Of a DNA stretch of 39,418 nt, positions 11,580-15,832 are shown piece by piece. The notes beneath the pieces are model-generated. The model had not been told where the DNA came from, ran no database searches, and saw nothing but the letters and a program-made list of their open reading frames with translations. The stretch lies in NCBI GenBank assembly GCA_007693765.1, contig RECZ01000115.1, positions 1 through 39,418 of the forward strand, read 5' to 3'. Position 1 is the stretch's first letter. Each line of letters begins with the position of its first letter. The DNA is from Phycisphaerales bacterium (GTDB taxonomy: Bacteria; Planctomycetota; Phycisphaerae; Phycisphaerales; UBA1924). The position numbers and the translations under genes are program-made.

Positions 11580-11864
11580 ATGGCCCGTTCGCTGAAAAAA
11601 GGCCCGTTCGTTGACGAGAAGCTCTACCGCAAGGTGGAGAAGCTCAACCAGCAGAGCAAGCGCGAGCCCATCAAGACGTGGGCGCGTCGCTGCACCATCG
11701 TGCCCGAGTTCATCGGCCACACGTTCAAGGTGCACAACGGGCGCGCGTTCCTCGACGTGTACGTCACCGAGGACATGGTCGGGCACAAGCTCGGCGAGTT
11801 CAGCCACACGCGCATGTTCCGCGGCCACACGAACAAGAAGGAAGGCATCAGGTCCGGCGCCTGA
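11580..11864 (+). CDS. rpsS: 30S ribosomal protein S19
   Basis: 94 residues, normal length. It starts [12 protein letters not shown], the S19 signature, and contains '[18 protein letters not shown]' and '[17 protein letters not shown]'. It forms part of the small-subunit head next to S13. Spacing to rplB is 38 bases, with an AAGGA element upstream. Nothing unusual was seen in the protein itself. Confidence 0.97.
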
Positions 11865-11917
11865 TTCACTCGCGCCGCCACGACCCGCACCGCGTCCCGG
11901 ACGCAGGATCCCCACCC

Positions 11918-12463
11918 GTGAAGATCAACGCCGAAAAGCTCAAGCGGCTCGTCGAACAAGCCGGCGTCACGCGCGAACAGCTCGCCGAGGCGATCGCGCG
12001 CCCGGGCTTCCCGCAGCGTGAAGCGCTCGGGGCCGTCAACAACTGGATGAGCGACCGCGACCACCCGCGCTGCAAACCCGAGCACGCCGACGCCATCGCC
12101 GCCCTGGTCGGCGCCAAGCCGACGGACTTCGTCCGCTTCGTGAGCATGGCCCGCTTCGTCCGCGGCAGCGCCCGCAAGTCGCGCCTCGTGGCCGACATGA
12201 TCCGCGGCATGCCCGTCGACAAGGCCCTCACCACGCTCGACTTCTGCGACAAGCGCGCCGCCGTCTCCATCCGCAAAACACTCAACGCCGCCATCGCCGA
12301 CGCCGAGCAGGCCGAGGCCGACGTCGGCGCCCTCGTCGTCGCCGAGTCGCGCGTCGACGGCGGGCCCATCATCAAACGATTCCAGCCCAAGGACCGCGGC
12401 CGGGCGCACCCCATCCGCAAGCGCACCAGCCACCTCGTCGTCGGTGTGGAGGAGAGGAACTAA
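11918..12463 (+). CDS. rplV: 50S ribosomal protein L22 with N-terminal XRE-like HTH domain
   Basis: 181 residues, against about 110 for usual L22. Residues ~78-181 are a normal L22: ARFVRGSARKSRLVADMIRG at the start, the beta-hairpin that lines the exit tunnel (GGPIIKRFQPKDRGRAHPI), and the final KRTSHLVVGV. Residues 1-76 resemble a Cro/C1-type helix-turn-helix: LKRLVEQAGVTREQLAEAI (8-26), then VNNWMSD and a helix with IAALVGAKPTDF. The start used is GTG at 11918. An internal ATG at 12146 could give a standard-length L22, but the 228 bases before it are open and domain-like. The stop overlaps the rpsC start by one base. The function of the added domain is unknown; it could bind nucleic acid or control the operon. 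Confidence 0.93.
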   Translation: MKINAEKLKRLVEQAGVTREQLAEAIARPGFPQREALGAVNNWMSDRDHPRCKPEHADAIAALVGAKPTDFVRFVSMARFVRGSARKSRLVADMIRGMPVDKALTTLDFCDKRAAVSIRKTLNAAIADAEQAEADVGALVVAESRVDGGPIIKRFQPKDRGRAHPIRKRTSHLVVGVEERN

Positions 12464-13164
12464 TGGGACAGAAAACCCATCCATTCGGCCTTCGCGTCGG
12501 CATCACCGAGGCCCACAAGAGCCGCTGGTACGCCCCCAAGGCGCTCTACGGCGAGCTGCTCGTCGAGGACTACCGAATCCGCGAGTTCTGCGACAAGCGC
12601 CTCAACCGCACCCCGCCCTTCGCGGCCGTCTCCGACATCCACATCGAGCGCACCCGCGAGGAGCTCAAGGTCATCATCAAGACCGCCCGCCCGGGCCTCG
12701 TCATCGGCCCCAAGGGCGCCGAGGTCGAGCGTCTGACGGAGGAGCTCCAGTACATGACGGGCCGCAAGGTCTCGATCAGCATCCTGGAGGTCAAGAGCCC
12801 CGACCTCGAGGCCCAGCTCATCGCCGAGGGCGTCGCCGAGCAGCTCAAGAAGCGCGCCTCGTACCGGCGCGTGGTGAACATGCGGGCGCAGGCCGCCATG
12901 CAGGCGGGCGCCAAGGGCGTGCGCATCCTGATCGGCGGGCGTCTGGGCGGGGCGGAGATGAGCCGCACGCTCGACGTGCGTCTGGGCTCGCTGCCCCTGA
13001 GCACGCTGCAGGCGAACATCGACTACGGCTTCACCGAGGCGCACACCACTTACGGCAGCATCGGCGTGAAGGTCTGGATCTACAAGGGCCTGTACACCGA
13101 CGAGGTCGACGAGACGCAGTCCACCGCCGCCGGCGCCCGCCCGCGTGCCCGCGGCCGCCGCTGA
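12463..13164 (+). CDS. rpsC: 30S ribosomal protein S3
   Basis: 233 residues. It starts M-G-Q-K-T-H-P-F-G-L-R-V-G, the S3 hallmark. The KH domain carries the GXXG loop as V-I-G-P-K-G at about residues 76-81. The C-terminal half includes 'GAKGVRILIGGRLGGAEMSR' and IDYGFTEAHT. S3 lies at the mRNA entry channel. The last ~15 residues are a basic Ala/Arg tail. The start overlaps the rplV stop (TAATG), so the two are translationally coupled. Confidence 0.97.
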   Translation: MGQKTHPFGLRVGITEAHKSRWYAPKALYGELLVEDYRIREFCDKRLNRTPPFAAVSDIHIERTREELKVIIKTARPGLVIGPKGAEVERLTEELQYMTGRKVSISILEVKSPDLEAQLIAEGVAEQLKKRASYRRVVNMRAQAAMQAGAKGVRILIGGRLGGAEMSRTLDVRLGSLPLSTLQANIDYGFTEAHTTYGSIGVKVWIYKGLYTDEVDETQSTAAGARPRARGRR

Positions 13165-14647: not shown

Positions 14648-15205
14648 ATGCCCCGCCACGTCCGCCAAGGCGACACCGTCATGATCACCTCCGGCGCCTT
14701 CAGGGGCGCCGTGGGCGAGATCGCGCGTGTCCTGACAAAGGTCGACCGCGTGGTCGTCCAGTTCCCCGCGTCGGTCTACGATGGCGAGAAGCGCCGGCAG
14801 CTCGTCAAGAACCGCAAGCCCACCCGCATCAACCCGCAGGGCGGGCGCGTCGAGCTCGACCGCTCCTTCCCGCTGAGCAACGTCAGCCCCGTCGCCGACG
14901 GCAAGCCGACCCGCGTCCGCTTCGAGACCCGCGCCGACGGCTCGAAGGTCCGCGTCGCCGCCCGCAACGGCAAGGAGCTGGGCGTCCTCCACGGCCCGCG
15001 CGAGGGGGGCGCCGCCAAGGGCGCCGCCGCCCCGGCGAAGAAGAAGACCACCAAGAAGAAGGCCGCCAAGCCCGCCGCCAAGAAGTCGGCGAAGAAGGCC
15101 TCGACAAAGAAGACGTCCAAGAAGCCCGCCGCGTCCAAGACGACCAAATCGACCAAGAAGGCCCCGGCGCGTCGCACCGCCAAGTCCCCCAGCAGCGAGT
15201 CCTGA
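14648..15205 (+). CDS. rplX: 50S ribosomal protein L24 with histone-H1-like tail
   Basis: 185 residues, against about 105 usually. Residues 1-~118 form the L24 KOW-type core: VRQGDTVMITSGAFRG, then RKPTRINPQGGRVE and 'VSPVADGKPTRVRFETRADG'. From about residue 121 the protein is a Lys/Ala/Ser/Thr tail built from repeated AAKK, TKK and SKKP steps, similar in composition to eukaryotic histone H1 tails and bacterial H1-like proteins. L24 is an early assembly factor at the 23S 5' domain. The tail is likely disordered and could bind rRNA or DNA. Spacing to rplE is 3 bases. Confidence 0.94.
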   Translation: MPRHVRQGDTVMITSGAFRGAVGEIARVLTKVDRVVVQFPASVYDGEKRRQLVKNRKPTRINPQGGRVELDRSFPLSNVSPVADGKPTRVRFETRADGSKVRVAARNGKELGVLHGPREGGAAKGAAAPAKKKTTKKKAAKPAAKKSAKKASTKKTSKKPAASKTTKSTKKAPARRTAKSPSSES

Positions 15206-15208
15206 CCC

Positions 15209-15832
15209 ATGGCCAAAGGCGCCACAAAGCACAACGACGAGGCCGCCGCCCCCACCGGGCCGAAGGTCACGCCGCGCCTCCAGCAGCGGTACCGCGAAGA
15301 GATCGCGCCCAAGACGCTGGAGAAGTTCGGCATGTCCAACCGGATGAGCGCGCCGCGTCTCCAGAAGATCGTCCTCAACGTCAACATGGGCCGGCACATC
15401 GAGGGCACTAAGGTGCCCCCGAACGTCCGCGAGACCGTGATCAGCACGCTCACCGCCGTGTCGGGCCAGAAGCCCATCGTGATCAAGGCCAAGAAGTCCG
15501 TCTCGAACTTCAAGGTCCGCGAGGGGTACGAGTCGTCCGCGATGGTCACGCTGCGGCGCGACCGGATGTGGCACTTCCTCGACCGCCTCATCAACCTGGG
15601 CGCGCCCCGCATCAAGGACTTCCGCGGCCTGCCCGAGACCTCCTTCGACAAGGGCGGCAACTACTCGATGGGCCTCGTCGAGCAGGGCGTCTTCCCCGAG
15701 ATCGACATGACCCGCGTCAACTTCACCCACGGCATGCACATCAACCTCGTGTTCTCGAACTCCGACCCCGAGAAGAGCCGCTTCGTGCTCGAAGAGTTCG
15801 GCTTCCCATTCCGCAAGCCGGAGACCAACTAA
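15209..15832 (+). CDS. rplE: 50S ribosomal protein L5
   Basis: 207 residues, about 25 longer than E. coli L5 because of an N-terminal leader (MAKGATKHNDEAAAPTG). The core is clear: RLQKIVLNVNMG, 'TAVSGQKPIVIKAKKSVSNF', RIKDFRGLPETSFD, then FPEIDMTRVNFTHGM. L5 binds 5S rRNA and contacts P-site tRNA. It is tightly packed between rplX and rpsN with 3-base gaps. Confidence 0.97.
   Translation: MAKGATKHNDEAAAPTGPKVTPRLQQRYREEIAPKTLEKFGMSNRMSAPRLQKIVLNVNMGRHIEGTKVPPNVRETVISTLTAVSGQKPIVIKAKKSVSNFKVREGYESSAMVTLRRDRMWHFLDRLINLGAPRIKDFRGLPETSFDKGGNYSMGLVEQGVFPEIDMTRVNFTHGMHINLVFSNSDPEKSRFVLEEFGFPFRKPETN

Follow-up and report, generated by a model that had tools for sequence, protein, structure and literature searches.

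The fusion of a Cro/C1 fold with a universal ribosomal protein is real and conserved, and one subtype of it occurs in two distant groups of planctomycetes. It was recognized in a 39,418-nucleotide stretch of DNA from a Phycisphaerales bacterium (contig RECZ01000115.1), referred to here as the window, in which an open reading frame of 181 residues at 11918-12463 of the forward strand, starting with GTG, encodes ribosomal protein uL22 with an extra N-terminal domain. The features of the gene and its neighbors are collected in Table 1.

Table 1. Features of the rplV gene of the window and its surroundings
Feature	Coordinates	Strand	Basis
rplV, uL22 with N-terminal Cro/C1-type domain	11918..12463	+	GTG 11918, TAA 12461-12463; homologues align end to end
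AGGA, Shine-Dalgarno-like, 9 bases before the GTG	11905..11908	+	Sequence
rpsS (S19), upstream neighbor	11580..11864	+	Open reading frame; relatives' equivalents matched as S19
rpsC (S3), downstream neighbor, 1-base overlap with the L22 stop	12463..13164	+	Open reading frame
N-terminal domain, residues 1-74, Cro/C1 (XRE) fold (predicted)	11918..12139	+	AlphaFold2 of residues 1-75; VIA-align
Helix 1, residues 5-15	11930..11962	+	AlphaFold2
Helix 2, residues 19-26; L22-A23 nearly invariant	11972..11995	+	AlphaFold2, alignment
H2-H3 turn, residues 27-32; length differs between members	11996..12013	+	A23-W43 spacing
Helix 3, residues 33-44, recognition-helix equivalent; N42 nearly invariant, W43 invariant	12014..12049	+	AlphaFold2, alignment
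Residues 41-53, end of helix 3 and H3-H4 loop; proposed rRNA-contact face (inferred)	12038..12076	+	Conservation, charge
Helix 4, residues 54-64	12077..12109	+	AlphaFold2
Junction, strand 72-82, from domain into L22 fold without a loose linker	12131..12163	+	DSSP, pLDDT of full-length model
uL22 core, residues 77-181	12146..12460	+	PF00237 9.8e-33; Foldseek to solved bacterial L22, best E 5.8e-11
Internal ATG, codon 77, candidate start of the preliminary description	12146..12148	+	No Shine-Dalgarno-like motif, not conserved

The PF00237 match covers residues 77 to 177 with 112.9 bits against a cut-off of 28, and TIGR01044 is matched with an E value of 1.3e-30 (105.7 bits against a cut-off of 73.65). 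The best 50 solved-structure matches of the core in a Foldseek search are ribosomal L22 chains. Within the S10 operon the gene is flanked by rpsS and rpsC, as is usual for uL22, and a search of the genome of the window found a single place encoding L22. In its core, its gene order, and its single place in the genome, the protein is the same as an ordinary uL22. Ordinary uL22 of related families, however, has about 110 residues, whereas the L22 of the window adds a folded N-terminal domain of 74 residues. A permissive Shine-Dalgarno-like motif is present 5′ of the start in 33 of 36 loci of the window's own family (f1). Because the genome has only one place for L22, incorporation of the protein with its helix-turn-helix (HTH) domain into the 50S subunit is to be expected from the sequence. 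Other proteins of the window also differ in length: uL24 (14648-15205) is 185 residues long and ends in an extended tail rich in Lys and Ala, a long uL24 being found also in two genomes of family f4 (164 residues in G039 and 163 in G055) and lengths of 109 to 128 in the other 17 genomes compared, and uL5 (15209-15832) has an apparent N-terminal extension of about 25 residues as judged by eye.

AlphaFold2 predicts four helices for the domain alone (residues 1 to 75, with 63 domain sequences; pLDDT 96.6, pTM 0.83), and it models the whole protein (40 sequences) with a pLDDT of 93.6 and a pTM of 0.84. The top structural match identified by VIA-align is C.Csp231I (3lfp; Z 9.7, rmsd 2.5 over 68 residues), and SinR (3qq6; Z 8.8), P22 c2 (3jxb; Z 8.7), and CylR2 share the same fold, the four matches extending over 62 to 68 aligned residues with Z scores of 8.2 to 9.7, a size that according to VIA-align's own note can stem from a common helical arrangement. 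Foldseek returned no match of the domain at an E value below 0.001 (best, 0.014). With these modest E values and the caveat on Z, the Pfam HTH matches of the relatives provide independent support for the fold: at E values of 0.01 or lower, the 63 homologous domains match HTH_31 (30), HTH_26 (16), HTH_3 (11), and HTH_19 (6), and the best HTH_31 match among them reaches 2.7e-8. The window's own N-terminal stretch matches HTH_31 at an E value of 0.0015 and 19.2 bits, below the curated cut-off of 27, so one sequence would not settle the HTH identity and it is the relatives that do so. By these models, the N-terminal domain of L22 is a Cro/C1 (XRE) fold. The preliminary description had claimed that an intact L22 is preceded, in the same frame, by an XRE-like HTH domain, and the AlphaFold2 models, the VIA-align matches, and the relatives' Pfam matches bear this out; structure prediction of the N-terminal segment returned an HTH fold, so the fusion reading stands, and the helices that had been named lie close to the predicted ones.

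The closest folds also include XRE-like domains of metabolic, nonribosomal enzymes, namely, PhpD (3g7d; E 0.014, Z 9.2), HEPD (3rzz; Z 9.3), HppE (1zz6; Z 8.7), and cyanase (6xgt; Z 7.8). The XRE-fold domains of these enzymes are not known to bind DNA. Their place among the closest folds therefore indicates that the fold has been reused outside repressors. Two ribosome-bound chains are further fold matches: 7o81_AU of a collided 80S ribosome (Z 7.7), which we take to be EDF1, and 9f9s_CN of a structure that is by its title a yeast disome with Mbf1, presumably Mbf1 itself. EDF1/Mbf1 and archaeal MBF1 have a Cro/C1 HTH domain that acts on the ribosome through rRNA, and one study places that of EDF1/Mbf1 between h33 and h16 of the 18S rRNA and states that EDF1 is not found in bacteria (PMC7486125). 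EDF1/Mbf1 is, however, a separate small-subunit factor with an N-terminal MBF1 domain of its own, whereas the L22 domain is covalently part of a large-subunit protein. No MBF1 family is among the Pfam and NCBIfam matches of the window's protein, and its residues 1 to 74 are the HTH itself.

The distribution of the domain was surveyed in the order of the window (families f1 to f6) and beyond, where a second group of carriers was found outside this order but in the same class (f7, f8, f9, f115, f116, f118, and f119), whose cultured members are presumably Sedimentisphaera and relatives. L22 was found in 59 of the 61 genomes of the window's order that were searched. The domain is present in 35 of 37 f1 genomes, with matches that start at residue 1 to 3 and run to at least residue 179, and the remaining two (82 and 86% complete) have no L22 match at all. 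One f1 genome (G026) encodes an additional divergent L22 without the domain on a small contig, perhaps a contamination. All six f4 genomes have the domain, one of them (G051) with a gene split by a frameshift in the assembly; in this locus (L042, C1 2799679-2803125) the domain and the L22 core lie in two different frames, probably owing to an assembly error. The other 18 genomes drawn from the order (f2, f3, f5, and f6) encode L22 without the domain, including the single genome of f3, the sister family of f1. The broken L042, the second L22 of G026 (L060), and a wrong frame from G050 of f2 (L059) were left out of the protein sets, and L042 also out of the spacing counts.

In a class-wide scan of 397 genomes, at least 378 of which gave a match at 1e-10, the full-length form was seen in all 44 f1 genomes drawn and also in f4. 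The second group has the domain in at least 90 genomes of its seven families (at least 89 in the class-wide scan, plus G625 of f7). A phylum-wide scan of 392 genomes, at least 371 of them with a match, gave 22 full-length forms among the matches listed, all from this class (10 of f1, 2 of f4, and 10 of 10 of f7 to f9). In 13 genomes of f102, f104 to f113, and f117 and in 10 outgroups from the phylum, the frames are 111 to 167 residues long and the matches begin at residue 44 or later, and representatives of f103, f109, f114, and f120 have an ordinary L22. Matches extended upstream beyond the core in two noncarriers, G057 (f6, from residue 20) and G604 (f103, from residue 24), and both were rejected as carriers: as judged by eye, their proteins (L054 and L082) start with ATG at the core, and the upstream frame of L082 is unlike the domain. 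A pattern modeled on the known fusions, which would miss different XRE-L22 fusions in other phyla, found at least 118 stretches in a scan over contig records; L22 is matched in each of the 118, in 113 from one of the first 12 residues onward, and the remaining 5 are truncated where the locus ends. The titles of these records name planctomycetes except for L140, L192, L106 ("bacterium"), and L212 ("uncultured bacterium"). Records L140 (RHKP01000006.1, "Cyanobacteria bacterium CYA") and L192 (QWIH01000025.1, "Leptolyngbya sp. PLA1") contain a planctomycete HTH-L22 and look misnamed.

Phylogenetic analysis of L2, S19, S3, and L16 from 118 loci (745 columns) placed the 67 carriers in two separate parts of the tree. 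One comprises f1 and f4, with f3 as the sister of f1 (support, 0.995), and the other comprises the seven families of the second group (support, 0.999), while the deep nodes between the two are weakly supported. The domains of both groups are nevertheless one subtype by profile comparison. A profile of the f1 domains matched 22 of 22 second-group domains with 33 to 69 bits (median, 55), the reverse profile matched 36 of 36 f1 domains (median, 54.8 bits), and hhalign of the two gave an E value of 2.4e-24; no PDB chain scored more than 21.4 bits against the combined profile or more than 19.2 against one built from 30 f1 sequences. At E values up to 0.1 in 25 whole genomes, the domain profile matched at L22 only, in all 11 carriers and in none of the 14 noncarriers. 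In all 22 second-group members the L22 core is longer by three residues between K87 and K158, the addition lying immediately ahead of the KDRGRA region.

On the cross-group profile scores and the occurrence at L22 only in the 25 genomes, we reject independent fusion of unrelated XRE genes, although two closely related XRE genes may each have fused to L22 before their free-standing copies disappeared. Transfer of the whole gene between the groups was also rejected: the L22-core tree places f1, f3, and f4 with Phycisphaerales families and the second group elsewhere, which fits vertical descent of the core and leaves no visible exchange of it, but transfer of the 5′ part of the gene only would be compatible with this tree. 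Unweighted parsimony requires 3 changes, while one gain with vertical descent requires 7 losses (3 if nodes with support under 0.9 are collapsed), so vertical descent from one origin is not the most economical scenario. We infer either one fusion followed by losses or a transfer of the 5′ part between the groups, with no preference between the two.

The way in which the domain is attached to the core is more constant than the HTH turn. In all 63 members, of both groups, W43 in helix 3 and K87 in the core are 44 residues apart, and in the full-length model strand 72-82 passes from the domain directly into L22. The A23-W43 spacing across the HTH turn, in contrast, is 17, 18, 20, 22, 23, or 27 residues. 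DNA-reading XRE regulators have a short HTH turn of conserved length, the canonical spacing of this type being about 13. A protein outside this set, L223 (G625, f7), lacks P50 and, as counted by eye, departs from the 44-residue spacing because its H3-H4 loop is longer by 6 residues. Since the attachment to the core is fixed in length and the HTH turn is variable, a rigid docked structural module would fit the alignment and the model better than a sequence-reading repressor.

The best conserved surface of the domain is formed by residues 41 to 53 and is mostly basic in the relatives; the window itself has N41 and D46. Conserved residues among the 63 members are W43 and P50 (63 each), N42 (62), and G46 (55). 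Position 41 is R or K in 24 of 36 f1 members, 20 of 22 of the second group, and 5 of 5 of f4, and the 36 f1 members have R51 in 32, K or R53 in 30, and an acidic D48 in 31. Mean net charge of the domain is +3.1 to +6.0 across the groups, with some negative domains in the second group (range, −4 to +9).

We propose that a regulator fold joined L22 in a single fusion event and was turned into a building block of the ribosome. The domain would be located, like uL22 itself, next to the port through which the polypeptide leaves, and the conserved, mostly basic end of helix 3 together with the H3-H4 loop would clamp 23S rRNA or a neighboring protein. Any effect would be on how the exit rim assembles, on how stable it is, or on the factors that dock at it, rather than on DNA. 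By analogy, this proposal draws on the Cro/C1 domain of EDF1/Mbf1, which is held by rRNA, and on the position of uL22, which borders the tunnel exit; in one structural study, uL22 is at the tunnel exit site, a docking place of biogenesis factors (PMC5071890). We give such a clamp at the exit rim an even chance, and within it the binding of rRNA is possible and is the reading that we prefer. Against the clamp are the faster evolution of the domain than of the core, its absence from f3 and many related families, the acidic D48 in the proposed face, and the negative net charge of some second-group domains.

A simple replacement, in which the domain stands in for an rRNA element or is compensated by a neighbor, was not borne out. 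An alignment of 23S rRNAs of 9 carriers and 11 noncarriers with that of E. coli contained no column or length bin that fully separates them, and three columns (E. coli 1209, 2019, and 2233) nearly do. Five uniform, disjoint columns had appeared in a smaller set of 4 against 6 sequences (rank 17 of 210 equal splits), and none was left with the 20 sequences. This 23S set excludes G726 (fragments), G055 and G044 (pieces), and the second copies in G470, G360, and G184, and no 23S match was obtained in G036, G093, G735, and G746. When the window was compared with 19 other genomes, in 3 of which no L23 was located, the lengths of L23, L24, and L29 likewise did not follow the domain; the S17 and L22 lengths of this comparison are unreliable. 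Since neither the 23S columns and bins nor these lengths follow the domain, no compensating partner was found, and these empty tests weaken the simple replacement reading. In L255 (G490, f114), about 450 bases flanked by end repeats are inserted into helix 45 of the 23S rRNA near E. coli position 1170; judged by eye, they resemble a classic intervening sequence that contains a reading frame of the four-helix-bundle (S23) type.

Four other explanations of the domain bear on the same evidence. It could be a docking platform for a protein of the exit port, such as a nascent-chain enzyme, a chaperone, a targeting factor, or a collision or stress sensor, with rRNA contact being secondary. The location of uL22 where biogenesis factors dock, as given in PMC5071890, is consistent with this, as are the differences between f1 and the second group at several of positions 47 to 53 while N42, W43, and P50 are kept, which would be expected if the partners differ. 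No partner, however, was identified among L23, L24, and L29, and we regard a docking platform as unlikely, though a genuine contender. Neutral or near-neutral accretion, by which a chance fusion was tolerated on the ribosome surface and kept as a stable fold, would agree with the absence of the domain in f3 and many related families, and the domain is also the faster part in all 32 within-genus pairs (dN/dS of the core, 0 to 0.19). The dN/dS of the domain is nevertheless 0.05 to 0.40 in these 32 pairs, well below 1, by which purifying selection on the domain is shown at the sequence level. The invariance of the 44-residue spacing and of W43 and P50 in all 63 members and the retention of the domain by each of the 35 f1 genomes in which L22 was matched also speak against neutrality, which makes it a rather improbable account.

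The preliminary description had further suggested that the added domain could make L22 an autoregulator of its operon, in that free HTH-L22 would bind its own operon DNA or mRNA through the domain and repress the operon. Cro/C1 folds are those of classic repressors, as the structural matches illustrate, and L22 starts with GTG in 34 of 36 f1 loci while ATG is used by S19 (35 of 35), S3 (36 of 36), and L16 (36 of 36). Non-AUG starts occur in other autoregulated translation genes, and the retention of GTG in f1 is a hint of tuned initiation or translational control. Mutational bias, however, explains part of it: at the fourfold sites of these genes, the share of G in A+G+T is 0.78, and GTG in 34 of 36 has a P value of 0.007 with relatedness ignored, just moderately above the mutational expectation; moreover, L22 of f4 and of the second group starts with ATG (the six f4 genes counted include L042, with a wrong ATG). 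In the regions 5′ of S10 from 21 genomes, the 60 commonest words of 9 bases rise above the shuffled level only where they come from the S10 start codons, and any given 5-base gapped palindrome occurs in 2 of the 21 at most, so that no conserved operator is seen in these regions. Rfam at gathering scores found one tRNA and no regulatory RNA in the window. These empty operator and Rfam searches weaken the autoregulator reading, and the HTH turn, which varies by 10 residues, is a further point against it; the suggestion found no support, and we now consider it quite improbable. There is a slim chance that the built-in Cro/C1 domain still binds nucleic acid in trans, as an EDF1-like sensor on the large subunit or as a tether to nucleoid DNA or specific RNAs; the Planctomycetes are a phylum with unusual nucleoids and cell plans.

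That only a short L22 is made from the in-frame ATG of codon 77, with the upstream frame untranslated, can hardly be credited, as the domain/core boundary of the 63 members has no start codon in 23, ATG in just 11, and GTG or TTG only in the rest, and the upstream frame is under purifying selection. A short form from this ATG in addition to the long one, raised in the preliminary description, finds no more favor with a candidate start that is not conserved and has no Shine-Dalgarno-like motif. Because no conserved start is present at the boundary, the long form of L22 is the expected product. There is one L22 per ribosome, and since the gene is single copy and a conserved internal start is absent, all ribosomes of the organism of the window should carry the domain.

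Enlarged L22 proteins have been described elsewhere. Both the L22 of Mycoplasma pneumoniae (PMC9534751) and uL22c of the spinach chloroplast (PMC5071890) exceed the E. coli length, and in the available parts of these sources the enlargements are not described as a Cro/C1 domain. The former source surveys bacterial ribosomal protein extensions of more than 20 residues and builds that of Mycoplasma L22; most M. pneumoniae extensions are predicted to be disordered, and a few, including that of L22, form secondary structure. The NCBIfam entry PRK12279 is by name a fusion of L22 with an unknown domain, and it matches here through the L22 part only. In the excerpts consulted, uL22 is among the early assembly proteins with no extraribosomal role given (PMC10931766), uL22 is treated as part of the tunnel with no occurrence of "planctomycet" (PMC13338714), and L22 does not occur (PMC7203096). 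Literature searches on L22/HTH fusions, planctomycete ribosomal protein extensions, and Phycisphaerae L22 gave no such fusion in the titles and the beginnings of abstracts of the papers listed, a negative limited by the survey tables of PMC9534751, which may list a long planctomycete L22 with the domain unnamed.

Ribosomal protein extensions are common in bacteria, and in kind the present one is familiar; new here is a complete and recognizable regulator fold that is fixed on one of the universal ribosomal proteins, at the rim of the exit tunnel, and that two distant groups have in one subtype. A fold of regulators would thus have been taken into the structure of the ribosome. Because f3, the sister of f1, is without the domain, natural controls exist with which the accretion of domains by bacterial ribosomes is testable. 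The fusion is also a caution against inferring the exit port of Planctomycetota from that of E. coli.
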